A DNA stretch of 45,813 nt from contig NZ_JAUWQB010000022.1 in the NCBI RefSeq assembly GCF_030611305.1, positions 1 to 45,813 on the forward strand, given 5' to 3'. Source of the DNA: Desulfobacula sp. Its GTDB lineage: Bacteria > Desulfobacterota > Desulfobacteria > Desulfobacterales > Desulfobacteraceae. Position 1 is the first letter of the stretch, and each line of letters begins with the position of its first letter. Below are positions 160-41,523 of the stretch, piece after piece. The position numbers and the translations under genes are program-made. The notes beneath the pieces are model-generated. The model was given only the letters and a program-made list of their open reading frames with translations. It had not been told where the DNA came from and made no database searches.

Positions 160-1125
160 TCACCGGTTCAGCAACCCGGATAATTGTTGTTCTGCATTCT
201 TCATCAGGGTATCGAACAAGTCTTTTACATTGGGAATATCATGGATCAGACCAATGCCCTGACCGCAGGAAATCACCCCCACATCCGTTTTCCCGTCATT
301 AAACATCAATCTTACCTTATCGCCTGTAACTATGGAAAGCACTTCATCAAAACTGCCGCTATTTTGTTCAATTTCAAAACATTTTTGAGCGGCTGCATTG
401 TTCCAGACCCTGTGAGTCGCCCCGATAGACCGCATGATGAGCATGGTATCCAGCTCAGATGCATCAAACAGGGCCTGCTTTAAATTTTCATGAATGGGGC
501 ATTCTTTGGTCAATAACAGGCGGGTTCCCAATATCACTGCCTCGGCGCCAAGACTGAGAAGTGCTGCGATTCCCCTGCCATCTGAAACACCACCGCCGCC
601 GATCACTGGAAGCTTGACTGCATCTACAACGCTTGGAACCAAAACCAGCGTTCCGATATCCAGCTTGCCTGTGGCGCCCCCGTTTTCATATCCCACTACA
701 GTGACAATATCTGCTCCCATTTTTTCCACTTTTCTGGCATACCGAATTCCCACACATTTATGAATCCATATCATGCCAGCATCTTTGAACCGTCTGCATA
801 ACTCTTCGGGTGCGGAATGTCCAGAAGTTTCGACAATCTTAACCCCTTTTTCAATCAGAACATCCAGATAATCATTGTTATCGATGGGCCGCATGGAAGG
901 AAAAAGATTGAGATTCACCGCAAACGGCTTGTCCGTCAGTTGTGTGAGCCTGTCAATGGCCCGGGCAAACTCATCTTTTGTCTGGTAAATAGCCGATGCC
1001 AGGATACCAAGTCCCCCTGCATTGGATATGGCTGCGACAAAATCAGCCTTTGAAATAGACATCATGGCGCCGCCGATGATGGGGTGCTTTATGCCAAGTA
1101 ATTGTGTAACACTGGTTTGTAACAT
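160..1125 (-). CDS. Nitronate monooxygenase / FabK-like flavin oxidoreductase
   Basis: An NAD(P)H-dependent flavin oxidoreductase of the 2-nitropropane dioxygenase (nitronate monooxygenase) family, about 321 residues, cytoplasmic, with a TIM-barrel fold binding FMN. The N-terminus LGIKHPIIGGAMM, the AISNAGGLGILAS segment and the phosphate-binding IGGGGVSDGRG and GAEAVILGTRLL stretches are typical. An upstream TTG would add five residues, but the ATG at 1125 has an AGGAG site just before it and starts at the usual family position. Members oxidise alkyl nitronates or act as enoyl-ACP reductases; sequence alone does not separate these. It is the last full gene of a minus-strand run that begins with speD. 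Confidence 0.85.
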   Translation of the reverse strand: MLQTSVTQLLGIKHPIIGGAMMSISKADFVAAISNAGGLGILASAIYQTKDEFARAIDRLTQLTDKPFAVNLNLFPSMRPIDNNDYLDVLIEKGVKIVETSGHSAPEELCRRFKDAGMIWIHKCVGIRYARKVEKMGADIVTVVGYENGGATGKLDIGTLVLVPSVVDAVKLPVIGGGGVSDGRGIAALLSLGAEAVILGTRLLLTKECPIHENLKQALFDASELDTMLIMRSIGATHRVWNNAAAQKCFEIEQNSGSFDEVLSIVTGDKVRLMFNDGKTDVGVISCGQGIGLIHDIPNVKDLFDTLMKNAEQQLSGLLNR

Positions 1126-1141
1126 GGTTCTCCTTTCCAAA

Positions 1142-2074
1142 CTAATTCATCGGGGTAAAGATAAGGCTGTACGGGGTGATCAATTTTACAGGATCATATG
1201 ACATTTTAGCTTGGCGAAGGCCTTTGATTCCAAGGTCCTGCTCCCGGTTCAGGTATTGACATTTATCTTTAAGATATTTTGCTGTTTCCTGGTTGATCAC
1301 CTGAGCCGCCCCTTTAAAATCTATATCAGATTTCTCAAACTGGATATCATAGGTTAAATGGTTCATTTCACTGAAAACAGAAAAAGCAGCCACCTTGTTC
1401 CCTACCGTTATCACAAGTCCCTCCAGTCTCAATTCCTCAAAATGATCAAATGATGCCTCTATGGCCCAGGACTCCCGATCGAGTGTCTTGGATCGTTTTT
1501 TGCTCCTGTTCAGTTGATCCTGTGCTAACCTCAGGGCTTCTTGCCTGTACTCACCTTTTAACAAGTGTACTTCAAAATTAGGATTGTTTCGTTTAAACTG
1601 TGAGATCAGGTTCTTTTTTTTGTGGAGTTTTATCCCGGTAAGTTCACACAGGCTGGCAACATCATAAATGTATTCTGAATGATCACGTTCTTCTTTGACG
1701 ATATAGTAATTTCCAATTTCAGGGAATTTTTTTAAATAATCTGATGTTAAAAGACTGAATTCAGGCGTAAGGCCCACATTTTTCAAATTTAATGACAAAA
1801 TGACAAGTTCTTCAGGATAAAAGTCTTCGCCCAGAGGCATAAATGCACATTGAGATAAGCCGTCATAAATCAAAAGCCGTTCCTGGTAAAGGGTCCATGA
1901 CAGTTTGTAAGCATCCTGCCAGGCATAAAGATTTGAAAAATTATACTCACAGGAAAAGGGCTTAAACGTATCAATATATGTTTGAATAAGCTCCCGGTCA
2001 TTTAATTCAAATCGATTAAATTTGGAAAATTTTATTTTTTGCGGTTCCCGTAAAACCGCTCCAGCCGCAACCAT
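1142..2074 (-). CDS. DUF2156 (LPG-synthase C-terminal-like) protein
   Basis: A 310-residue soluble protein resembling the DUF2156 / phosphatidylglycerol lysyltransferase C-terminal family, which has a double GNAT-like fold. Seen in the sequence are an N-terminal FSCEYNFSNLYAWQDAY motif, a central basic stretch (KLHKKKNLISQFKRN) and the late segment AAQVINQETAKYLK followed by NREQDLGIKGLRQAKMSY, the usual end of the family. No membrane segments are present, so it lacks the flippase part of MprF-type enzymes. An AAGGA site precedes the ATG. The acceptor substrate is unknown. It follows the GNAT gene by 4 nt and is probably co-transcribed with it. Confidence 0.75.
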   Translation of the reverse strand: MVAAGAVLREPQKIKFSKFNRFELNDRELIQTYIDTFKPFSCEYNFSNLYAWQDAYKLSWTLYQERLLIYDGLSQCAFMPLGEDFYPEELVILSLNLKNVGLTPEFSLLTSDYLKKFPEIGNYYIVKEERDHSEYIYDVASLCELTGIKLHKKKNLISQFKRNNPNFEVHLLKGEYRQEALRLAQDQLNRSKKRSKTLDRESWAIEASFDHFEELRLEGLVITVGNKVAAFSVFSEMNHLTYDIQFEKSDIDFKGAAQVINQETAKYLKDKCQYLNREQDLGIKGLRQAKMSYDPVKLITPYSLIFTPMN

Positions 2075-2078
2075 TTTA

Positions 2079-2507
2079 TCAATCCTTATATCTTAACGGA
2101 ACATGATCTTTAAGTAATTCAAATCCAAGTTCTTTATAAAAGGAAGATGTTCCCGGCTGGGCGATAAGGCCGATCCAGTCAACATTGTTTTCCCTTAATT
2201 TTTCTATTAAAGTTTGAATAATTTTTTTACCAATCCCTTTGCCCCTAAATTCCTTTAACACCGTAACATCCTGAATATAAGCATCACTTGCAAGGTCGGA
2301 AAGGGCTCGACCCATTCCGATAAGTTTTTTTTTCCAAAAAACCCCCACAAAAAGAGCTGAATCTTTCACAATATAATTTAAAAATTCAGGCTGGCTGTCA
2401 TAGGAAGACTCCCACCATCCGGCTTCTTTGTAGAGGTGGATCAAGTCCTTCATTGAAGCGGATTTAATGGGTTTTATAATAAGTTGTGTTGAAGGGTCGC
2501 CTGACAT
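2079..2507 (-). CDS. GNAT family N-acetyltransferase
   Basis: A 142-residue single-domain acetyltransferase that would move an acetyl group from acetyl-CoA to an amine. The acetyl-CoA-binding motif A is clear: DVTVLKEFRGKGIGKKIIQTL around residues 80-100 (pattern R-G-x-G-I-G). The C-terminal part, FYKELGFELLKDHVPL, is the usual GNAT beta6-alpha4 region. It lies 2 nt downstream of speE, so a link to polyamines such as spermidine N-acetylation is possible, but that is inference from position only. The substrate cannot be told from the sequence. Confidence 0.85.
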   Translation of the reverse strand: MSGDPSTQLIIKPIKSASMKDLIHLYKEAGWWESSYDSQPEFLNYIVKDSALFVGVFWKKKLIGMGRALSDLASDAYIQDVTVLKEFRGKGIGKKIIQTLIEKLRENNVDWIGLIAQPGTSSFYKELGFELLKDHVPLRYKD

Positions 2508-2509
2508 TT

Positions 2510-3394
2510 TTAAACACTTTTCTTTGATTTTATGGATTTAAACATCTTTTGGGCAAAATAAGGCAAAACAAAAGAGGCTTCATGTATTTTGGGACAATAA
2601 TATTTTAATTGTTTTTGAAAATTTTCAGAAATGGCTCGACACGGCTTTTTTAGTTCCGGCCCCAGAGATCCGAGGCAAATACCGAGATGACCACCCGGAT
2701 ACGTGGGCACCAGAAAATAGGAATATGCCTGAACCTGAAACAGATCTTTTGTGATCTTCACAAGATTGGCAACACACTCCTTGTGAAGGAAGAAAGATTC
2801 GCCCTGGGTGGCAATAACACCGTTTTTCCGGAGGGCCGCTTTTAATCCTTCGTAAAACGGTCGTTCAAACAAAACTTCACCAGGGCCGATGGGATCGGAT
2901 GAATCCACAATAATCACATCATATTTGTTTTTTTGGTCCTGAACCCAGGCACTGCCATCTGCTATATAAACCTTAAGTCTGGGATCATCAAATCCGCAGG
3001 CAAGATCAGGCAGAAATTCTTTTGATACCTTGATAACATCTTCATCAACTTCACAAAAATCAATATTCTTTACACAGTCGTGGCGGCCAACCTCTCTTAA
3101 TATTCCACCATCACCCCCTCCGATGACCAGAACATTTTCAGGATTGGGGTGTGCAAATAAGGGGACATGGGCAAGCATCTCCTGATATACAAATTCGTCT
3201 GATTGGGTCAACTGAATAATTCCATCCAGAACAAGCATTTTCCCATGATTTTTGGTCTGATACATGTCAATTTGCTGAAATTTACTTTTTTTGCTGTAAA
3301 GAACTTCTTCTACTTCAAGGGATAATGATATTCCGGGCCACATGGGACAAATTTCCGAAAACCATCCGTCCTTTATTTTACTATAATTTTCCAT
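2510..3394 (-). CDS. speE: Spermidine synthase (polyamine aminopropyltransferase)
   Basis: Transfers an aminopropyl group from decarboxylated S-adenosylmethionine to putrescine, giving spermidine. The 294-residue length is normal. Motifs include the N-terminal beta-strand domain ending KMLVLDGIIQLTQSDEFVYQEM, the nucleotide-binding VLVIGGGDGGILREV, the acidic CEVDEDVI, and the catalytic DVIIVDSSDPIGPGE. It starts 7 nt after speD, the gene that makes its co-substrate, so speD-speE is a polyamine operon that continues into the GNAT gene. No speC, speA or speB is present in the window, so putrescine must come from elsewhere. Confidence 0.95.
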   Translation of the reverse strand: MENYSKIKDGWFSEICPMWPGISLSLEVEEVLYSKKSKFQQIDMYQTKNHGKMLVLDGIIQLTQSDEFVYQEMLAHVPLFAHPNPENVLVIGGGDGGILREVGRHDCVKNIDFCEVDEDVIKVSKEFLPDLACGFDDPRLKVYIADGSAWVQDQKNKYDVIIVDSSDPIGPGEVLFERPFYEGLKAALRKNGVIATQGESFFLHKECVANLVKITKDLFQVQAYSYFLVPTYPGGHLGICLGSLGPELKKPCRAISENFQKQLKYYCPKIHEASFVLPYFAQKMFKSIKSKKSV

Positions 3395-3401
3395 CTTTAA
3401 T

Positions 3402-4238
3402 TTATTGTCTCAAAGCGATCTGCATTTTATAATGATCCCCTTTGAAAAACGACATAGCCAATTCTGCGACCTCACGGGGCTCATAAAATTTGCAACTGAA
3501 TATATCCAGATATATTGAATTTGAGGCATTGGCAAAATGGCCTGAAATCAAGGAGGTTTCAATGAACTGCGTCATGCTGAACCCTTCGACTTTTTCATCT
3601 TCTCCAAAATGGACTATCTGGCATTCCCCAAACCGCTTCATATCGATCAAATCACACAGATCATATACAAAACGTTCAATGCTTTTTGCATCCCGGATAA
3701 TCTGCGGGTCACTGTCATAAATATCAACAGAGGTTAAGACCCCCCATGGGGTTTTTTTTTCATACTCTTTTTTCCAGGAGATCGGATAGATCTTTGAATT
3801 TTTAAGAATCTGGCTAACTTTTTTTTGCTCAAACGGCTTGGAAATAATTCCCCTGTTTTGATCGGAAGATATGACAACATTTTCAGATTCAAAAGAATCT
3901 TTCATGGAATTGATGGCAATTTCCAGGTCTATATTGTCTCCACAGGTAAATATATCAACGGCAGCATAATTATGTTCCGGCCATGCATGGACTGTAAAAT
4001 GTGATTCTGCTATAACAACGACACCACTGACTCCCTGGGGCTTGAATTTATGAAACGAAGAGCTGATAATCGTTGCACCACTCTCTTTTGCAGCTTTCAA
4101 CAACGCTTTTTCAACCCAGTCTTTGTTTAACAGGACTTTTGCTCCGCATTCATAATACTCAATGGTCAGCTGTCTTCCCAGGGAAAAACATGCATTCTGC
4201 TTAGAATTACCAACGAATTTAATATTTTTACCAAGCAT
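3402..4238 (-). CDS. speD: S-adenosylmethionine decarboxylase, two-domain form
   Basis: Makes decarboxylated AdoMet for SpeE using a self-generated pyruvoyl group. The N-terminal half (about residues 20-115) is a complete bacterial AdoMetDC: VVVIAESHFTVHAWPE carries the Glu-Ser processing site, with Ser79 as pyruvoyl precursor, followed by YAAVDIFTCG with the catalytic-type Cys99. The protein is about 278 residues, roughly twice the usual bacterial SpeD/SpeH. The second half repeats the fold: GFSMTQFIETSLISGHF then NSIYLDIFSCKFYEP aligns with the first-half core but lacks the exact ESH site. A GTG further up would add 14 residues; the ATG at 4238 has a GGAGA site 8 nt before it and was chosen. 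Confidence 0.88.
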   Translation of the reverse strand: MLGKNIKFVGNSKQNACFSLGRQLTIEYYECGAKVLLNKDWVEKALLKAAKESGATIISSSFHKFKPQGVSGVVVIAESHFTVHAWPEHNYAAVDIFTCGDNIDLEIAINSMKDSFESENVVISSDQNRGIISKPFEQKKVSQILKNSKIYPISWKKEYEKKTPWGVLTSVDIYDSDPQIIRDAKSIERFVYDLCDLIDMKRFGECQIVHFGEDEKVEGFSMTQFIETSLISGHFANASNSIYLDIFSCKFYEPREVAELAMSFFKGDHYKMQIALRQ

Positions 4239-6554: not shown

Positions 6555-6935
6555 TTACTCTTTAATATGGCATTCACCACAAAGTACCGGTCCCTTGTTT
6601 TCCTCAAAATGACAGTCCCTGCATTGTTTATGATATGCAACCGAAAGAGAAATAGAATTTTCCTGATCAGGCTTCAGGGAATGACAGTCGGAACAAAGAC
6701 TGTCTTCGCTGGATTCATCCTCAACCAGTTCTTTACCTTCATACACATGATGACAAACGGCACAATCATCTATCTCTGCCATTTCATTATGATCGTCATG
6801 CTCAAACACGGCACTTGGCCTTTGCGGCTTTTCAAACACGGAATTATCCAATCTTTCAAGTTCAGTATTGGAAAATGCATATACTGCCGTGAATATAAAC
6901 AATATGAAACCCATAAAAATAACTTTCTGTTTCAT
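6555..6935 (-). CDS. tmcA: TmcA, acidic tetraheme cytochrome c3 of the Tmc complex
   Basis: Periplasmic electron carrier that, in the Desulfovibrio Tmc complex, takes electrons from hydrogenase/type I cytochrome c3 and passes them to the membrane subunits. Four CxxCH haem sites are visible (CAVCHH, CSDCH, CRDCH, CGECH) in a protein of about 126 residues, preceded by a signal peptide (MKQKVIFMGFILFIFTAVYAFS). The mature part is acidic (for example EHDDHNEMAEIDD and EDESSEDS), as expected for TmcA/type II c3. The start at 6935 follows the tmcB stop by 1 nt, with GGAGAG inside the tmcB end, so translation is coupled. An earlier in-frame start would spoil the signal peptide. Confidence 0.92.
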   Translation of the reverse strand: MKQKVIFMGFILFIFTAVYAFSNTELERLDNSVFEKPQRPSAVFEHDDHNEMAEIDDCAVCHHVYEGKELVEDESSEDSLCSDCHSLKPDQENSISLSVAYHKQCRDCHFEENKGPVLCGECHIKE

Positions 6936-6936
6936 C

Positions 6937-8295
6937 TTACTCTCCCGGTTTATAGATTTTCTTTTCCATGGTTTCATAAATGATATCTCCTAAAAACTTT
7001 ACTTCCATGTTCAGATCATAATGATGAACAATATCTTCAAGCCCGCTGTGACAATTATGGCAGGGAGCAATCAAAACCTCGGCACCGGTTGCCTTTAACT
7101 GTTCTGCTTTTACTCTGTTGTTCACCATACGTTCCCCTTTATAAGGAGGGCCGCAGTTGATCACACCGCCGCCTGCACCGCAGCAAAAATTATGTTCCCG
7201 GTTCGGTGTCATCTCTATAAAAGATTCGCACAGCATATTTGTCACTTCCCTTGCCATATCGTGCAATCCCCTTCCTCTGGAAACGTTGCAGGGGTCATGG
7301 AGGGTAACGGTTTTTTTAAATTTTTGGGCAATCTTGATCCGGCCCGATGTCAGCAACTCATGATAGAATTCCAGGGCATGGACAACCTCAAAAGGAGGCA
7401 TTGCCCATCCGATCCAGCGGTTTCCCACATCATAGGTTGACCGGAAAGCATGACCGCACTCACCCATGACAATACGTTTTACCTTGAGTCTTGCTGCTGT
7501 CTCATAAAATGTCCTGGCAATGCGGCCTGAAATTTCATTATCACCTGTAAACATGGCCATATTGCTGTTATCCCATCCCGGACTTGAGGGCATGGTCCAG
7601 TTAATCCCTGCTGCATGCATAATGGTAGCAGCCTGGTATAACAACCCTGCCTGGAATTTAGGTTCCGGGGCGATAACCGAATACATGACATCGGCACCCT
7701 CTTTATCCAGCGGGATTCTCAAATTCTCAAACTCTTCCCTTGCATCCTCTTCCTGCCATTGAAGGGTATCAATCCATTCATCCTCTTTCACCCACATCTG
7801 GTTCATGGTGGCGGAATGGCTGTTCACAGTGTCCTGAATATATAAAGGGGTTATTTCAAGCTTGTGGCAGATTCTTCGCACCAGCAGCATCAGATAAGCA
7901 ATGTCAATACCAAAGGGACAGTACATGGAACACCGCTTACAGACATTACATTGTGTCTGGGCAATATGAACAGCCCTTCTTAAGAAATCTATTGATACTT
8001 CCCCTTTTTTCTCCAGCATTTCCCAGATGGTCTGTTTTACTTTACCAGCCGGGGAAAAGGCCGGATCACGGTCATTGGAAAGGAAATACAAGCAGGCTTC
8101 CGCACAAAGACCACAATGCATGCAGGTTTCCACATAGGCTTTAAACCTGGGGCCGGTCTCTTTCTGCAGCACCTGGTTAATGGTATTTTTTATTCTTTCC
8201 GGTGTAAGTCTGGCCAATCCCGCTTCAACAGCTTCATCTGTCTTTCTTTCTTTCACAACAGGTGAGTCATCCTTTGTTTTTATCTCATTTGGCAT
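6937..8295 (-). CDS. tmcB: TmcB, cytoplasmic Fe-S subunit with HdrD-like CCG domains
   Basis: HdrD/GlpC-like iron-sulfur protein of about 452 residues, with two ferredoxin-type [4Fe-4S] motifs near residues 58-68 (CMHCGLCAEAC) and 116-126 (CNVCKRCSMYC) followed by a proline. Later come cysteine-rich CCG segments: MGECGHAF, HDPCNVSRGRG, NFCCGAGGG and APCHNCHSGLED. No signal peptide or membrane span is seen, so it should sit on the cytoplasmic face bound to TmcC. The second ATG (8295) is preferred because AAGGAG lies 6 nt before it; the ATG at 8301 abuts the ribosome site. Its electron acceptor is unknown, as for other Tmc/Qmo/Dsr-type complexes. Confidence 0.93.
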   Translation of the reverse strand: MPNEIKTKDDSPVVKERKTDEAVEAGLARLTPERIKNTINQVLQKETGPRFKAYVETCMHCGLCAEACLYFLSNDRDPAFSPAGKVKQTIWEMLEKKGEVSIDFLRRAVHIAQTQCNVCKRCSMYCPFGIDIAYLMLLVRRICHKLEITPLYIQDTVNSHSATMNQMWVKEDEWIDTLQWQEEDAREEFENLRIPLDKEGADVMYSVIAPEPKFQAGLLYQAATIMHAAGINWTMPSSPGWDNSNMAMFTGDNEISGRIARTFYETAARLKVKRIVMGECGHAFRSTYDVGNRWIGWAMPPFEVVHALEFYHELLTSGRIKIAQKFKKTVTLHDPCNVSRGRGLHDMAREVTNMLCESFIEMTPNREHNFCCGAGGGVINCGPPYKGERMVNNRVKAEQLKATGAEVLIAPCHNCHSGLEDIVHHYDLNMEVKFLGDIIYETMEKKIYKPGE

Positions 8296-34736: not shown

Positions 34737-34834
34737 GGAAGTGCGCGGCTCACTGGTGGGGCCCTCGGACTTCAAATCCGATGTGGGGCGCTAGAACCGT
34801 CCCGGGTGGGTTCGATTCCCATGCACTTCCGCCA
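34737..34834 (+). tRNA. selC: Selenocysteine tRNA, anticodon UCA, CCA encoded
   Basis: A 98-nt tRNA with an 8-bp acceptor stem (GGAAGTGC at 34737-34744 with GCACTTCC at 34823-34830), discriminator G and an encoded CCA at 34832-34834. The anticodon stem TCGGA/TCCGA encloses CTTCAAA with anticodon TCA at 34772-34774. A long variable arm follows, then the T arm with GGTTCGATTCC. The long acceptor and variable arm are specific to bacterial tRNA-Sec, which decodes UGA with SelB. A short T-run follows the gene and may end transcription. Two UGA-containing genes lie within 3 kb. Confidence 0.97.
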
Positions 34835-34903: not shown

Positions 34904-35623
34904 TTACTCGAATGCCATTTCAGTTTTCCACTCTTTCCAAACATTACCTACCAGTTCTGGCCCCGGCTTAAGCGTCATCTTGCCCGGTTTCCAACCGGAT
35001 GGAGTGGCTTGTGTTCCTTTTGAGTCTCTTACAAGCTGAAAGGCTTGTACTTGCCGGAACGATTCATTAACATTTCTTCCTACTGGTGGCGTTAGCACTT
35101 CGTATCCTTGAATAATTCCATCTGGATCGATAATAAATCTTCCGCGTGTCTCAACACCTGCGTCCTCATCATAAACACCATAGGCCTTTCCCACTCTACC
35201 GCCGGAGTCAGATAGCATAGCAAAAGGAACACCCCCATCTACCATTTTGGACAGCTCATGATCATTCCACATTTTGTGTACGAACATACTGTCAATACTC
35301 ATGGATAAAATTTCTACTCCAAGCTTTTGAAATTCAGGGTATTTTTCAGCAACTGCTGAAATTTCCGTTGCTCATACAAATGTAAAATCACCCGGGTAGA
35401 AACAAAGAAGAACCCATTTCCCAAGGTTTTCAGATAACTTTACATTAATGAATTTGCCATTCTGGTAGCCTGGCGCAGTAAAATCAGGCGCTTTTCTGCC
35501 AACTTGTATCATACTCATGATCTCCTTTTTTTCATTATCTCTTTCAGGTGTTTGTTCAGGGACTGTTTCGCCTACCGGACCACCTGTGGGTCGAGCACAT
35601 CCAGCTTTTAGTTCTTCTGCCAT
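34904..35623 (-). CDS. Selenocysteine-containing peroxiredoxin (UGA at 35372-35374)
   Basis: A 239-residue AhpC/TSA-family peroxidase if UGA at codon 84 is read as selenocysteine. The active-site pattern P-x3-T-x2-C appears as PGDFTFV-U-ATE, so Sec84 replaces exactly the peroxidatic cysteine. The frame continues without a break into [27 protein letters not shown] and [13 protein letters not shown], all peroxiredoxin. A 7-bp hairpin (bSECIS candidate) begins 10 nt after the UGA, and selC lies 70 nt away. The C-terminal VCPA resolving motif is replaced by ATPSGW; remaining cysteines are Cys9, in a 37-residue extension with GCARPTGGP, and Cys74. AGGAG precedes the ATG. It reduces H2O2 or organic peroxides. 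Confidence 0.92.
35344..35361 (-). promoter_or_regulatory. bSECIS element of the peroxiredoxin
   Basis: On the minus strand, stem TTTCAGC/GCTGAAA (7 bp) with loop AGTT begins 10 nt after the UGA at 35372-35374. A G in the first two loop positions and a distance of about 16-37 nt from UGA to the apical region are the known features of bacterial SECIS elements, bound by SelB within the reading frame. Here the loop G is the 19th base after the UGA. Confidence 0.75.
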
Positions 35624-36828: not shown

Positions 36829-37233
36829 ATGGGTGGATTTGAAGTAACCTTTCCCGACAATAAAAAAATAGATGTCGCATTTGACAATTTTAAAATTAAA
36901 ACTGACCAGGCCAAAGAGAATGGAGGGGATGAGACCGCACCCGAGCCTTTTGATGTTTTCATCTCTTCCCTGGGAGCCTGCGCCGGAATATATGCAAAAT
37001 CCTTTTGTGATGTAAGGAAACTTTCCACGGGCGACATGCATCTTTTTATTGAAGTCTTTTTCAAAGAAGAGCAAAAACTCATGGACCAGGTCAATCTTAC
37101 CCTTCATGTCAATCAACACTTCCCTGAAAAATATATCAAACCGATTATAAAATCCATGAACGGATGTGCTGTTAAAAATCAACTTCACCCGGATATAAAA
37201 ATAAATACTGCCGTGGCCTATCTGGATCAGTGA
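36829..37233 (+). CDS. OsmC/Ohr family protein
   Basis: A 134-residue OsmC-like protein. The two redox cysteines are in SSLGACAGIYAKSFC and SMNGCAVKNQL, with the acidic PEPFDVFISSL ahead of the first, so it may act as a thiol-dependent peroxidase or sulfur-transfer protein. GGAGA precedes the ATG. It is convergent with the selenoprotein B-like gene and overlaps its end by 7 nt. Its position between two selenoprotein genes suggests a shared redox theme, but that is only context. Confidence 0.88.
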   Translation: MGGFEVTFPDNKKIDVAFDNFKIKTDQAKENGGDETAPEPFDVFISSLGACAGIYAKSFCDVRKLSTGDMHLFIEVFFKEEQKLMDQVNLTLHVNQHFPEKYIKPIIKSMNGCAVKNQLHPDIKINTAVAYLDQ

Positions 37234-38177
37234 TAGTCTTGAACAATTCCATTTTGTTCTGCTTTTTCAAGCAATTGCAGTGCTGTTTTTAAAATGTCTA
37301 TCTGTAATTTTTCATCAAAGGGACTTCCCAAAGGTCGTCCCAAAAGTTGTGGCACAAGCAACACCCGTGGCAGGGACATCATTCTCATCCGGGTTTCAAA
37401 GGCTTTGACCGCAATAACAATAGTCGCTATTTTGGCTTCTTCCAATGCTCTTGCAACATGTCCGACGGACATGTGACAGACCGGTCAGACCGGAACCAGC
37501 GCTACTGCTTCAACCCCTTGGTTTACAAATTTATCCACCCAATCCGGCAATGTTTTTTTCAATAATCTCATTTGAGAGCATGCGCCCACAAATGAATACG
37601 CATTGGACGTTAATTTCTCAACCACCCCCTGATCCTTCAGGTGAACAATTCTCTGGTATGGAAAAGATACATTGGGATCTTTTAATGCAGCCCTGATATC
37701 ATATCCACCATGGCGAACCATCAGATCCTCAGGCTTTGAATCAAATGGGATTTCAGAAAGCTGTGGCTCCTCCTTTAAAAAATCAAACACACGACGCTCT
37801 GCTTCTTCCTGAGTCATATTCTCAACCCCTAATGGCTCAGGATCACATCCCTTCAAAAAATGGCCGCTTGATGTAAGAAGCGAAAGTTTTATGGAGGACA
37901 ATGGCTTTTCTAAAGGGTGAAAAGGTCCATCATCATATTCAAAATTTTTCTGTTCTCTATATCCCTGAATCTGACCCTGTAGCATTCTTTGCTTCACACG
38001 AAAAAGATCGCCGTCGTCGAGCGAGTCAACGACATCCTTGAATAAATTTTGAATAAATGTCGAGGCATCCTCCGGTGTCAGATCAGATAAAAATTTAAAA
38101 GACAGATCCGAGCGTTTACCGTAAAAAAAAGATTTAATGAACGCTTCAAAGGATTCCGGGTTGTTCTCCTTTTGCAT
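37227..38177 (-). CDS. Selenoprotein B-like (glycine/sarcosine/betaine/D-proline reductase family), UGA at 37485-37487
   Basis: A 316-residue protein when the in-frame UGA (codon 231) is read as selenocysteine. The site reads VALVPV-U-PVCHMSVGHVARALEEA, a UxxC redox motif as in PrdB/GrdB-type reductase subunits, and the frame continues into MRMMSLPRVLLVPQLLGRPLG. A strong 8-bp hairpin starts 10 nt after the UGA. Known members reduce glycine, betaine, sarcosine or D-proline with partner subunits; no such partners are seen here, so the substrate is unknown. The ATG at 38177 has GGAGGGAG 7 nt before it; an upstream in-frame start overlaps the regulator gene. It lies 37 nt after the GntR gene. 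Confidence 0.88.
37456..37474 (-). promoter_or_regulatory. bSECIS element of the selenoprotein B-like gene
   Basis: On the minus strand, stem ACATGTCC/GGACATGT (8 perfect pairs) with loop GTC begins 10 nt after the UGA at 37485-37487. The loop opens with G, which is the 19th base after the UGA, matching the peroxiredoxin element. The hairpin also encodes H-M-S-V-G-H, consistent with an in-frame bacterial SECIS. Confidence 0.8.
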
Positions 38178-38214
38178 TTTTTTGCTCCCTCCAGGGTTTA
38201 TATAATTAAGATTG

Positions 38215-38913
38215 TTAAATTGTTTTAATACTTTTTTCCTTATTAATTCTCTCAATACTGATGATGGCATGCTCTTTAACATTAGAAATATGTTGTTTTA
38301 AAATTCCGACCGCGCCATCAAGATTGGAATCAGCAATATATTCATATAATTTAGTGTGTTCCGAATCAACGGTATCCATAGGTGTTACAAAAAGGATATT
38401 ACCCCGATATTTAAGATATAAAAGATCAAAAAGTGATTTTAAGGTATTGATTTGTATCGTGCATCCTGAAAGCGTTGCAAGGGCAAGGTGAAATTCCATA
38501 TCCTTTAAAAGTCGTTCTTTTAAATAAATATCTCGAACAGCGTCAAGATGGCAGTCCAGGGCTTTTTTCAGTATTTTCAGCCCTTTTTTATCAATTTGGG
38601 ATATGGTTTTGGGCAAGAGTGAGGTTTCGATTAATTCCCTGAATTCATATATCTCCATGATTTCTTTTAGACTGATATTTTCAGTATAATACCCGCGATT
38701 GGGTTCATGCCGGACAAGGCCTTGATATTCAAGCCGTTTCAATGCCTGGATAACCGGTGTTGTACTCATTTCAAGGCGCTTTGCAAGATCTCCATATGAA
38801 ATCTTCTGCCCCGGTATAATTTCATTTAAAAAAAACATCCGGCGAATACCCATATAGGCTTCCTGAGTAAAATCATCTTTGCTCTTTTTCTTTTTTTTTC
38901 TTTTTTTCTCCAT
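38215..38913 (-). CDS. GntR-family regulator with FCD ligand domain
   Basis: A transcription regulator of about 232 residues. It opens with a lysine-rich tail (MEKKRKKKKKS). The winged helix (about 15-85) contains GQKISYGDLAKRLEMSTTPVIQALKRLEYQGLVRHEPNRGYY. The FCD all-helical effector domain (about 90-225) includes YEFRELIETSLLPK, FHLALATLSG and EHTKLYEYIADSN, whose Asp/His residues usually bind a metal and an organic acid. It lies just upstream of the selenoprotein B-like gene and divergent from the second 2-oxoacid oxidoreductase. The long palindrome at 39046-39085 is its likely operator. Confidence 0.9.
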   Translation of the reverse strand: MEKKRKKKKKSKDDFTQEAYMGIRRMFFLNEIIPGQKISYGDLAKRLEMSTTPVIQALKRLEYQGLVRHEPNRGYYTENISLKEIMEIYEFRELIETSLLPKTISQIDKKGLKILKKALDCHLDAVRDIYLKERLLKDMEFHLALATLSGCTIQINTLKSLFDLLYLKYRGNILFVTPMDTVDSEHTKLYEYIADSNLDGAVGILKQHISNVKEHAIISIERINKEKSIKTI

Positions 38914-39017
38914 AACCAAAATAAATATACCAAGCCCTTTATAAAATCAATTATAAAAACAGATAATTTCAAATTCTAATAATAGCTCTATCCACTTGAA
39001 TATCAGTCATTTTATTC

Positions 39018-39085
39018 TTGACATACAAATCGCAAAGAGATACATAATTATAAATCTGATCAAATATTTGATCAGATTTATAATT
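39018..39085 (+). promoter_or_regulatory. Promoter overlapped by a perfect 40-bp palindrome
   Basis: TTGACA (39018-39023) and TACATA (39041-39046) with 17 bp between form a near-consensus sigma-70 promoter for the oxidoreductase genes. A perfect 40-bp palindrome runs from 39046 to 39085, starting at the end of the -10 and covering the expected start site. Its centre is CTGATCAAAT/ATTTGATCAG, with two TGATCA boxes. The position suits a repressor operator, most simply for the divergently encoded GntR protein. Confidence 0.75.
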
Positions 39086-39125
39086 TAAATTGATAGAAGC
39101 TTTTATTAAACCCAAGGAGAAAAAG

Positions 39126-40241
39126 ATGGCTTTGTCATTTATGGAAGGAAATGAGGCACTTGCCAGGGGTGCAATTGCTGCGGGCTGCAATTTTTTTGCA
39201 GGCTATCCCATCACACCTGCAACAACTATTTTTAACAGTATGCTGAATATGCTGCCCCCCAAAGGCGGTATTTGTATTCAGGGAGAAGATGAAATCGCAT
39301 CCATGGGATATTGCATCGGGGCATCCATGGCAGGCAAAAAAGTACTGACCGCAACATCCGGCCCCGGCATCAGTCTTTACAGCGAACAACTTTCATTTGC
39401 CATTGGCAGTGAAATTCCTTTAGTGATTGCAGATGTGCAGCGCCTGGGGCCTTCAACCGGTTCAGCAACTCGAGGTGCTGACAGTGATATCCAATTCTTA
39501 AGATGGGGTAGCACAAGCGGTGTTCCGGTGATCGTTCTTGCCCCTAAAGATGCTCTTGACTGCTATGTCCTTGCTGTCCATGCCTTTAACTATGCTGAAG
39601 AATTCAGGTGCCCCGTTTTTATTGCTTCCAATAAAGAAATCGGGATGACCAGGGAAAGCTTTGATCTTGATTCCGTCACCCTTCCCCCGATTGTCGAGAG
39701 AAATCTGTTTTCAGGAGATTCGTATCTTCCGTTTGAAGCAGAGCCGGATGCAGCCCCGCCGTTTCTTCCCATTGGCGGGAAAACCCTTGTCAGACAGACA
39801 TCATCAACCCATGGACCAGACGGCTATATCACCATTGATCCGGAAGTGATTGCGGAAAACCAGGCAAGGCTGAGAGAAAAAATTCATAGCGCCCGAAAGA
39901 GAATTACGCTTTTTGAAGAAGATATCAAAGAGAATAGTGATACACTGATCATCAGTTATGGTGTCACCGCCCGTGCGGTTGAAGATGCCGGCAAAACTCT
40001 TGAAAGCAAAGGAAAACCTGTCTCCACCTTAACCCTTAAAACCCTGTGGCCGGTACCAGAAGAACTTTTGATAGAAAAAGCAAAACCCTTTAAACGCATT
40101 CTGGTCATCGAAATGAACCTGGGTCAATATGTCAATGAAATAAAGCGGGTGCTTTGTGATAAAAAAGTAACGTTTTACGGACAGATGAACGGTGTGTTGA
40201 TTACGCCTGCAAAGATTATGGAGGTCATTGAAAATGAATAG
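39126..40241 (+). CDS. 2-oxoacid:ferredoxin oxidoreductase, alpha subunit
   Basis: A 371-residue alpha subunit of a VorB/KorA-type enzyme: FMEGNEALARGAIAAGCNFF, AGYPITPATTIFNSML, GEDEIASMGYCIGASMAGKK and TATSGPGISLYSE. The C-terminal half has ITLFEEDIKENSDTLIISYG and RILVIEMNLGQY. The ATG at 39126 has AAGGAG 6 nt before it; an earlier in-frame ATG lies too close to the palindrome and lacks such a site. It overlaps the beta-gamma gene by 8 nt. Unlike the enzyme at 17850-20458, the gamma domain is not on this subunit. Substrate is unknown, perhaps a branched-chain or aryl 2-oxoacid. Confidence 0.9.
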   Translation: MALSFMEGNEALARGAIAAGCNFFAGYPITPATTIFNSMLNMLPPKGGICIQGEDEIASMGYCIGASMAGKKVLTATSGPGISLYSEQLSFAIGSEIPLVIADVQRLGPSTGSATRGADSDIQFLRWGSTSGVPVIVLAPKDALDCYVLAVHAFNYAEEFRCPVFIASNKEIGMTRESFDLDSVTLPPIVERNLFSGDSYLPFEAEPDAAPPFLPIGGKTLVRQTSSTHGPDGYITIDPEVIAENQARLREKIHSARKRITLFEEDIKENSDTLIISYGVTARAVEDAGKTLESKGKPVSTLTLKTLWPVPEELLIEKAKPFKRILVIEMNLGQYVNEIKRVLCDKKVTFYGQMNGVLITPAKIMEVIENE

Positions 40242-41523
40242 TTATTTGAATAAAACCAGGCCCCCTGTCTATTGCCCCGGATGTACTCATGAAAAAATCA
40301 CCAAAGGCCTTGATAAAGCCATACTCAAATTGAACCTTCCGGCCGACAAAACCGTCATCGTTACTGATATTGGATGCTCCGGCCTTTTTGATACCTTCTT
40401 CAACGTGCACGCTCTCCATGGGATTCACGGCCGGGCTCTGACCTATGCATCGGGTCTCAAGCTTGCTAATCCCGAACTGAACGTGATTGTTACAATGGGA
40501 GACGGAGGGCTGGGTATCGGGGGCGCACACGTATTGGCCTCCTGCAGGAAAAATCTTGATCTTACGCTGATTATTCTCAATAATTTCAACTTTGGTATGA
40601 CCGGCGGACAATACTCTGCCACTACACCGACCGATGCAATGGTGGGATCAGGATTTCTCAATCATGCTGAAATTCCCCTTGATATCTGCGCCATTGCCCA
40701 AAGTGCCGGTGCAACTTATATTGATCGATGCTCAGGTCATGACGAGAGCCTGCCCGGAAAAATTGCCGCTGCCATTGAGCATAAAGGGTTTTCAATCATT
40801 GAAACCCTTGGCATGTGCACCGGTCGTTATACCAAAAAAAACCAGCTGACTCCAAAACTCCTTGATCAGATGATAACCGATCTTCCTGCCAGAGACGGTA
40901 TCATAGAAAAAAATCAAAGGCCTGAATACGGTGAACGTTACAGGGCGCTTGCCAAAGAGAAAAATACATTCCCTGAAGCGGTTACCATAGAAAAGCAAAT
41001 CGATCTTAAAGATTATCAACAGCAAGAGGTGGTTATCTTAGGCAGTGCGGGAATGCGAATTGTAACAGCCGGGGACATTGTCTGTTACGCAGGTCTTTGT
41101 GCGGGCATGAATGTGTCAATGAAAAATGACTATAATATCACCGTTCTCAGGGGACAGTCTGTTAGTGAAATCTTGATTTCACCCGAAAAAATAGGCTATC
41201 CCGGCATTGAATCTCCTTCGGTTGTTCTGGCATTAAGTGATGAAGGCGTCCAGCGAAGAAAAAAGATATTTGCAACCCTTAAACCAGACACATTTGTTTT
41301 AAAAGAAAGGACCGTTACCATTCCTGAAACCAACGCGAATGTTGTTGAGATCGACTTCCGGAAATTTAAAATCAAAAAACAGGATTGGGCTTTGGCTTCC
41401 CTTGGTGTAATGGCAAAAAAAGAAAAAGCTATTAATAAAAAAATGCTAAAGTATGCTTTAAAGTCCCGTTTCACTGAAAAAGTCTATCTGATTGCAATGG
41501 AAACCATTGAAAAAATGACTTAG
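40234..41523 (+). CDS. 2-oxoacid:ferredoxin oxidoreductase, beta-gamma fusion
   Basis: A 429-residue fusion. The beta domain (about 1-260) has RPPVYCPGCTHEKITKGL, TDIGCSGLFDTFF, HALHGIHGRALTYASG, the TPP motif TMGDGGLGIGGAH and ILNNFNFGMTGGQYSATTPT. The gamma domain (about 265-429) has EVVILGSAGMRIVTAGDIVCYAGL and SVSEILISPEKIGYPGIESPSVVLALSDEGV. The ATG at 40234 follows GGAGG by 9 nt; a TTG two codons earlier is too close. No delta ferredoxin subunit follows, and the unit ends at the terminator at 41564-41600. Confidence 0.9.
   Translation: MNSYLNKTRPPVYCPGCTHEKITKGLDKAILKLNLPADKTVIVTDIGCSGLFDTFFNVHALHGIHGRALTYASGLKLANPELNVIVTMGDGGLGIGGAHVLASCRKNLDLTLIILNNFNFGMTGGQYSATTPTDAMVGSGFLNHAEIPLDICAIAQSAGATYIDRCSGHDESLPGKIAAAIEHKGFSIIETLGMCTGRYTKKNQLTPKLLDQMITDLPARDGIIEKNQRPEYGERYRALAKEKNTFPEAVTIEKQIDLKDYQQQEVVILGSAGMRIVTAGDIVCYAGLCAGMNVSMKNDYNITVLRGQSVSEILISPEKIGYPGIESPSVVLALSDEGVQRRKKIFATLKPDTFVLKERTVTIPETNANVVEIDFRKFKIKKQDWALASLGVMAKKEKAINKKMLKYALKSRFTEKVYLIAMETIEKMT

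Follow-up and report, generated by a model that had tools for sequence, protein, structure and literature searches.

Described relatives of the selenoprotein gene

The closest described relatives of the protein considered here are the selenoproteins PrdB of D-proline reductase and GrdB of glycine reductase, the latter grouped in PF07355 with GrdF and GrdH as selenoprotein B of glycine, sarcosine and betaine reductase. In the chemistry proposed for PrdB and GrdB, as given in the portion of the text available to us, the selenolate attacks carbon once a carbonyl group has bound the amine (PMC10298544), and two reviews, in the passages available, also list PrdB and GrdB as selenoproteins of those names. 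In fluoroacetate reductase, a GrdB-like pair, FarE is reported not to be a pro-protein and the substrate forms no Schiff base, according to the available passages (PMC10838667). Here we describe a gene on the minus strand (positions 37227–38177) of a 45,813-nucleotide stretch of Desulfobacula sp. DNA (contig NZ_JAUWQB010000022.1, positions 1 to 45,813; hereafter the window), which almost certainly encodes a selenocysteine (Sec)-containing protein of the same superfamily and belongs to a separate family that mostly lacks the partners of either reductase.

Marine surveys have reported proteins of this general type. The Sargasso Sea survey of 2005 assigned 42 Sec-containing UxxC proteins to proline reductase PrdB (PMC1088965), and the Global Ocean Sampling (GOS) survey of 2008 counted 235 Sec-containing PrdB along with 110 cysteine homologues (PMC2398784), as far as the available passages of both reports go. 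Members of the present family are likewise Sec-containing UxxC proteins and may be among the marine sequences; whereas these passages place all such proteins under proline reductase and GOS includes cysteine homologues, none of the latter was found in the family by the two-pattern scan described below. No paper setting this subfamily apart was found in the literature searched, judged from listings and passages; the superfamily is known, and on those sources nobody appears to have distinguished within it a separate family that is pyruvoyl-free and has a domain, signature and context of its own.

A conserved in-frame UGA

The initial annotation had joined two minus-strand open reading frames (ORFs; 37485–38282 and 37227–37472) across the TGA at 37485–37487, and its coordinates proved exact. 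The two ORFs share one frame, and the joined product of 316 residues, read through this one UGA and terminated by the TGA at 37227–37229, has the context VPV-U-PVCHMSVGHV around Sec231, in which the redox motif U-x2-C (UPVC) pairs the selenocysteine with a resolving Cys234. The sequence GGAGGG at 38187–38192 on the same strand, 9 nucleotides 5' of the ATG at 38177, is a likely ribosome-binding site.

Named-species genomes were scanned with two peptide patterns (VRHGGYD[IT] and CPVCHMSV), which gave 57 loci; members without the patterns, cysteine forms included, would escape such a scan, and within that limit no cysteine form was found among the 57. TGA occupies the Sec site in all 55 loci that reach it, with L103 and L104 ending before the site, and the UGA is therefore not a chance occurrence. 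Across 145 related genomes (own genome included), 15 others carry a copy 52–83% identical over most or all of its length, and every such copy contains an in-frame TGA. The one in L006, near a contig end, shows 2 TGA and 2 TAG codons in its match, and further copies in G093 and G122 are partial or split, that of G093 consisting of two pieces with a TAG.

Purifying selection acts on the codons beyond the UGA. In six close relatives (L055 used to residue 278 only), the nonsynonymous rate (dN) after the UGA was 0.06–0.19 against a synonymous rate (dS) of 0.51–1.09, as compared to a dN of 0.09–0.17 and a dS of 1.1–2.3 before it; dN/dS was somewhat higher after the UGA than before (highest in L053, approximately 0.33) and still well below 1. 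The coding frame after the UGA stays free of stops until its end in all six, whereas the other two frames contain 1–8 stops each. The genome also holds the genes for SelA, SelB and SelD, the last itself carrying a TGA, and the expected decoder of the UGA, a tRNA-Sec with a UCA anticodon, is encoded in the window on the plus strand (34737–34834 by ARAGORN; 34737–34830 by Rfam, 76.5 bits).

A hairpin resembling a selenocysteine insertion sequence (SECIS) lies within the coding sequence just 3' of the UGA (37453–37477, minus). It begins 10 nucleotides past the UGA and has an 8-base-pair (bp) stem with a 3-nucleotide loop and two further pairs beneath, giving 10 pairs in all. In an alignment of 56 sequences, 55 of them distinct, 94.4% of the 550 cells retained pairing. 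Both sides had changed in 26 cells, against a shuffled mean of 8.8 (standard deviation 2.0) and with none of 500 shuffles as high, and the covariation score of 0.239 (shuffled 0.170) likewise exceeded all 500 shuffles. Two pairs are informative: position 1 of codon 236 (A or G) pairs with position 3 of the His240 codon, A meeting T in 18 of 18 cases, and position 3 of the residue-235 codon mostly pairs with position 1 of codon 241. Counting against the hairpin, the double changes are confined to two of the 10 pairs, a number equalled or exceeded in 466 of 500 shuffles (shuffled mean 1.9), and in 21 of 55 sequences the bases adjacent to the loop do not pair. Folded alone, the window hairpin is unremarkable (z −1.54). 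By its place just downstream of the UGA the hairpin would qualify as a SECIS element, with recognition by SelB as a prediction.

That the UGA is instead a true stop, a sequencing error or the scar of a pseudogene has a practically negligible probability. Nothing beyond the UGA itself and the weak fold of the single window hairpin speaks for it, and TGA conservation, covariation in the hairpin, purifying selection after the UGA and the complete Sec machinery all speak against it; on the first three of these, a pseudogene or true stop was rejected.

Family placement, signatures and structure

Pfam GRDB (PF07355) matched residues 149–228 with 36.1 bits against a cut-off of 22, which bears out the earlier assignment of a U-x2-C selenoprotein to the GrdB/PrdB superfamily. 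The label "selenoprotein B-like" holds for that superfamily and not for a functional selenoprotein B: the best NCBIfam model, PrdB (TIGR04483, E 1.5e-28), reached only 99.9 bits against a cut-off of 300, the GrdB model TIGR01917 reached 32.2 against 602.2, and four GrdB-type NCBIfam models gave 32–45 bits against cut-offs of 65–800.

Two alignments were built. The first (A1) comprises the window protein and 13 relatives, leaving out L006 and L008, which lie at contig ends, and the partial copies L017 and L018; the second (A2) comprises the window protein and 52 of the 57 named loci, leaving out L081 (in-frame TAG) and the partial L098, L103, L104 and L105, with L055 trimmed at its match. The relatives and the named loci overlap in L049–L057, L062, L065 and L102. 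For the trees, 22 of the 53 alignment rows were used, with comparators chosen as PrdB over its cut-off and GrdB adjoining GrdE-like genes; the long-branched L163 and L164 entered the first tree and not the second, and L124, L165, L166, L168 and one of the two L169 segments were omitted as duplicates or members already counted. In the 61-row tree, rooted at the midpoint only, all 22 sampled family members formed one clade (support 100/99), apart from the clade of four true PrdB (98/87) and that of 10 GrdB-like proteins (100/100), the two groups against which the protein was to be placed. The family grouped with other PrdB-like proteins past a 100/97 branch, with PrdB and GrdB outside. In an earlier tree without true PrdB, the support of the family clade was 95/100.

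The family also has a domain of its own. The N-terminal 91 residues, largely helical in an AlphaFold model, match family members at E ≤ 1e-29 and gave no match at E < 1 to any other subfamily among the loci compared. Invariant in all 53 rows are R22, F27, K28, H106, D112, R155, H156, G157, G158, Y159, D160, D167 and W213, as well as U231, P232, C234, S237, H240, R243 and R271, while H235 is kept in 50 of 53. With the four true PrdB the family shares the catalytic domain, including H156, G157, G158, D160, D167, C/U231, C234, H235, R243, E246 and R271 in 4/4, and three of the four have Sec at the same place. In contrast to PrdB, the family has the extra N-terminal domain and the motif UPVCHxSVGH (UGTCHRSAVI in PrdB), and it occurs without PrdA. 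Residue 155 is Arg in the family, Ser or Thr in 4/4 PrdB and Ala in 8 of the 10 GrdB-like proteins; residue 240 is His in the family, Ile in PrdB, Thr in GrdB-like proteins and mostly Leu in other PrdB-like proteins. The match to Pfam GRDB, HGGYD and UxxC is common to the family and the GrdB group, but the GrdB-like proteins fetched are mostly about 440 residues long, carry STUGTCTRCG and adjoin GrdE-like genes, as the family does not. On these sequence comparisons the protein is neither GrdB nor PrdB and falls in a distinct, supported clade with its own N-terminal domain.

Other PrdB-like selenoproteins read through UGA stand alone as well (L019–L030, L125–L133, L161–L164; motifs such as UPxCTRAVG, UGxCNxSVGL and UPKCHQTVGL), and some genomes hold several of them. 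They resemble the family in having UxxC, mostly with Pro after Sec, and a TGA in every row compared except L020, which has Cys for Sec; they differ in lacking the N-terminal domain, RHGGYD and SVGH, and fall into several separate subclades.

The AlphaFold model was of high confidence (predicted local distance difference test 93.8, predicted TM-score 0.92). A Foldseek search of the PDB with it gave no match at E ≤ 0.001, and the best structural match by VIA-align had a Z of 8.3 and a root mean square deviation of 3.1 over 147 aligned residues; as judged from the model, these searches do not show a new fold.

By NCBI label, the 57 named loci belong to Chloroflexota (15), Actinomycetota (13), Thermodesulfobacteriota (11), Bacillota (5), Myxococcota (3), Spirochaetota (2) and Acidobacteriota, Bacteroidota and Pseudomonadota (1 each), with 5 lacking a phylum, SAR324 among them. 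Some labels are doubtful: L050 and L052 are labelled Myxococcota yet match the window's own genus, and a binning error may account for the label Bacteroidota in L063, L062 and L063 coming from one metagenome (GMC6) and being 79% alike.

Absence of partner subunits

The initial annotation had described a stand-alone member, with the partner subunits absent nearby; profile searches extended this to the whole genome and to most of the carrier genomes searched. In its own genome, which is 97% complete, the gene at 37227–38177 is the single PF07355 match, and no PF09338 (GrdE-like), GrdA or PrdA was found. PF09338 was likewise found in none of 18 genomes (own genome and 17 relatives), and in five of the 36 genomes taken for this search from the 57 named loci, so that 49 of 54 carrier handles lack it (corresponding to approximately 53 distinct genomes; G144 and G151 seem to be one). 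GrdA occurred in the same five of 54, four of them Clostridia and one an Acidimicrobiia; these five apparently encode a glycine reductase in addition. Neither PrdA (TIGR04480) nor PrdB (TIGR04483) exceeded its cut-off in any of the 54, own genome included. From these counts it follows that the absence seen nearby is genome-wide in the window's own genome and usual for the family.

It is accordingly highly improbable, and largely refuted, that the protein is a subunit of a genuine D-proline or glycine reductase with a partner encoded elsewhere or missed. TIGR04483 is its best NCBIfam model, and HGGYD and the UxxCH residues are common to it and PrdB, but the score falls far below the cut-off, the clade is separate, and one missed contig could not explain an absence of PrdA from all 54 handles and of PF09338 and GrdA from the same 49. 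A partner encoded elsewhere in the genome was rejected by the searches of the own genome and the carriers with the PF07355, PF09338, GrdA and PrdA profiles. FarB offers a likeness, being a GrdB-like Sec protein whose substrate, in the available passages, forms no Schiff base; it is nevertheless paired with FarE, whereas the family lacks such a subunit in most genomes searched. As a separate observation, a genome of the window's genus (G002:C97, L159) encodes an 854-residue open frame that is an apparent fusion of GrdE-like and GrdB-like subunits.

Gene arrangement in Desulfobacula-type genomes

Comparison of genomic context across relatives agreed with a stand-alone gene and revealed a regulator, a palindrome and a 2-oxoacid:ferredoxin oxidoreductase operon that the initial annotation does not mention. 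A GntR/FCD-family regulator gene (38215–38919, minus; Pfam FCD 8.9e-15, GntR 1.7e-08) lies 37 bp upstream of the selenoprotein gene on the same strand. Divergent from it on the plus strand are a korA-like gene for the alpha subunit of a 2-oxoacid:acceptor oxidoreductase (39126–40241; Pfam POR_N 1.4e-50; NF006412 386.5 bits, below the cut-off of 411), which starts at the ATG at 39126 although its longest ORF opens at a TTG at 39090, and a korB-like gene for the beta subunit with a gamma-type (POR) domain fused C-terminally (40228–41523; Pfam TPP_enzyme_C 1.4e-25, POR 7.5e-09). The gntR and korAB arrangement recurs in 9 of the 17 other loci fetched, and the named same-genus relatives are labelled Desulfobacula.

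In the gap between gntR and korA lies a perfect 24-bp palindrome, ATCTGATCAAATATTTGATCAGAT (39054–39077, strandless), a putative operator for the GntR/FCD regulator, which is located likewise in all 10 genomes that show this arrangement. It is common to eight loci aligned over this gap, from which a degenerate pattern was built without G011 and G060. Nine of the 10 arrangement genomes matched the pattern at gntR–korA with zero mismatches and the tenth (G060) with 2. Elsewhere in the 11 genomes searched, matches had 1 to 3 mismatches, and seven of the 10 had no other site within 2; the reversed pattern, used as a control, gave one match across all 11. G001, which has no gntR or kor beside its copy, has a 3-mismatch site only, and a wider search for regulon sites in the own genome found one further site, with 3 mismatches (C95:18715–18738). 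We infer from this arrangement that gntR, the selenoprotein gene and korAB may constitute a unit under metabolite control, acting on a carboxylate that is metabolised via a 2-oxoacid.

Further genes vary among these genomes. A transporter-like gene past korB is common to L049 and L053–L056 (of the major facilitator superfamily by Pfam in L056), and L041 has an aldehyde ferredoxin oxidoreductase in the neighbourhood. Separately, a conserved protein of approximately 595 residues is encoded past the selenoprotein gene in L050 (9364–11151; no Pfam match), L054 (6712–8502) and L056 (9006–10802). In L049, L050, L053 and L056 the longer spacer between gntR and the selenoprotein gene seems by eye to contain a small open frame of about 60 codons, perhaps a ribbon-helix-helix protein, which is missing in the window.

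On the other side, an OsmC-like gene (36829–37233, plus; Pfam OsmC 3.4e-10) is convergent with the selenoprotein gene and overlaps its stop by 7 bp; an OsmC-like gene is found near the selenoprotein gene in 4 relatives. The window also encodes a second selenoprotein, a PrxU-type peroxiredoxin (34904–35623, minus; 419.2 bits against a cut-off of 270; U84), convergent with the tRNA-Sec gene, so that two selenoprotein genes and the tRNA-Sec gene lie inside 3.5 kb. In a scan of 12 loci, some of which represent the same contig, no conservation of the neighbourhood of tRNA-Sec was seen.

The PrxU and OsmC-like genes would fit another function, that of a thiol-dependent protective reductase of a peroxide, disulphide or sulphur-oxide, serving defence against oxidative stress and not catabolism. 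A Redoxin gene in L074, a DsbA-like protein in L060 and disulphide reductases near other copies point the same way, as does the presence of the family in Acidimicrobiia and Candidatus Lucifugimonas marina, which are not known as Stickland fermenters. Nevertheless, the GntR/FCD regulator and the divergent korAB point to a metabolite, PrxU had no match in the other loci searched, and no thioredoxin-fold protein was among the Foldseek matches listed; we regard a protective role as quite unlikely.

Neighbourhoods in other lineages

In five Chloroflexota loci (L081, L086, L088, L090 and L095), a 3-oxoacid coenzyme A (CoA)-transferase gene ends 53–121 bp upstream; these include Candidatus Lucifugimonas marina, from a genus of the SAR202 group. 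L097 has a CoA-binding protein 6 bp upstream. A disulphide reductase is encoded in 6 of the 57 named loci and starts at most 100 bp downstream in four (L063, L078, L091 and L105); a rough placement estimate for three of five lying so close is 5e-6, a figure made post hoc that ignores operon structure, with L078 and L091 being one lineage. L091 also shows a probable operon (379–3528) in which two different PrdB-like selenoprotein genes flank a MerA-like flavin adenine dinucleotide (FAD) disulphide reductase, followed by genes for a VTT-domain protein and an ATP-binding cassette (ABC) substrate-binding protein (NF008633), parts of which are shared by L061 and L104.

L061 and L075, two loci with family proteins 48% alike, also encode a deiodinase-like selenoprotein with the motif TUPYC, which in L061 lies 0.7 kb upstream of the family gene and in L075 immediately downstream of it. 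This neighbour raises the prospect of an enzyme of reductive C–X cleavage, dehalogenase-like, in which the selenolate displaces a halide or other leaving group from a small carboxylate, the mechanism that has been proposed for fluoroacetate reductase; this would be a special case of the reductase that we propose below. FarB/FarE, GrdB-like themselves, provide a precedent for C–F cleavage in the passages available (PMC10838667). The deiodinase-like neighbour is present in only 2 of the 57 loci and stays below the Pfam cut-off (T4_deiodinase 21.2 bits against 27), and we consider the dehalogenase-like case unlikely.

An ArsM-family methyltransferase gene adjoins the selenoprotein gene in L076 (293.9 bits against a cut-off of 263), L077 and L085 and is one gene away in L101, with a second methyltransferase in L085 and L101, which would fit an arsenic or organometal enzyme that, for instance, reduces methylated arsenicals. 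These four loci represent one Actinomycetota lineage, with copies 78–80% alike; only weaker, more distant matches occur in L073, L082 and L094, and Pfam and NCBIfam named nothing of the kind among the window genes tested. Such an enzyme is very unlikely here, and a general arsenic role for the family was rejected, being confined to that lineage.

Two further neighbours were noted. Upstream of its selenoprotein gene, L064 encodes a protein homologous to pentameric ligand-gated ion channels (6731–7843; Pfam), and L100 has, by eye, a similar neighbour (6782–7894).

Proposed function

We think it most likely, at slightly better than even odds, that the protein is a single-subunit, pyruvoyl-free Sec/Cys reductase of a small, probably anionic substrate, linked in Desulfobacula-type bacteria to carboxylate breakdown through KorAB. 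The proposal builds on Sec231 in a GrdB/PrdB-type domain, on the separate family, on a genome with no pyruvoyl partner, GrdA or PrdA, and on the gntR–palindrome–korAB arrangement. The family keeps the HGGYD loop along with Sec and the resolving Cys, while the carbonyl-bearing partner is mostly missing from the genome; as there would be no pyruvoyl group, there would be no Schiff-base activation of free amines, and D-proline and glycine are thus unlikely substrates. A likelier substrate would, by analogy with fluoroacetate reductase, have its own leaving group or electrophilic atom and be attacked directly. It would be held by the invariant Arg155-His-Gly-Gly-Tyr-Asp160 loop, with Arg155 possibly anchoring the anion, for example a carboxylate, while the Sec231 selenolate attacks the electrophilic atom. 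Cys234 would then displace the product to leave a Sec–S bond, from which a thiol or a flavoprotein disulphide reductase may regenerate the selenol. In Desulfobacula-type bacteria, the enzyme would probably be induced together with a carboxylate-degrading pathway and contribute to it, KorAB oxidising the 2-oxoacid form of the carboxylate to acyl-CoA.

Several points weigh against this proposal. The role given to Arg155 derives from its conservation, and no clear match to a solved structure was found in PDB sequence searches with the single protein or the 53-row profile; nor were biochemical data on any family member found in the literature searched, as far as the sources were available. The action of the GntR/FCD regulator at the palindrome is a prediction, and the palindrome may not be specific to this locus, because G013, G018 and G060 hold other sites with 1–2 mismatches (one with a single mismatch in G060). 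In L049, L050, L053 and L056, 131–291 bp separate gntR from the selenoprotein gene, for which reason a common transcript is not certain there. The neighbouring disulphide reductases belong to different subfamilies, and neighbours vary by lineage, Kor/GntR having been seen in a single family of relatives, CoA-transferase in a single group of Chloroflexota and ArsM in Actinomycetota. Since L052, L057, L058, L065 and L102 show none of Kor/GntR, CoA-transferase, disulphide reductase, deiodinase-like protein or ArsM, the family cannot be defined by any one neighbour.

The GOS ocean survey counts PrdB-like selenoproteins among its most frequent, listing them as proline reductase in the available passages, and the present results show that one large family lacks, in most genomes searched, the partners required by proline or glycine reductase chemistry. 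The lack so far of a Cys form suggests a reaction that needs selenium. More tentatively, and with rather less than an even chance, the family may represent a new class of single-subunit, pyruvoyl-free Sec reductases, with Sec in every member so far, that break a carbon–heteroatom bond of a small carboxylate and feed acyl-CoA metabolism; by record label it would span at least six phyla, reach the deep-ocean SAR324 and SAR202, and be easily mistaken for proline reductase. The regulator, candidate operator and oxidoreductase operon provide a concrete route to the real substrate, and the protein itself could serve as a minimal one-chain system for studying selenocysteine chemistry like that of the glycine and proline reductases.

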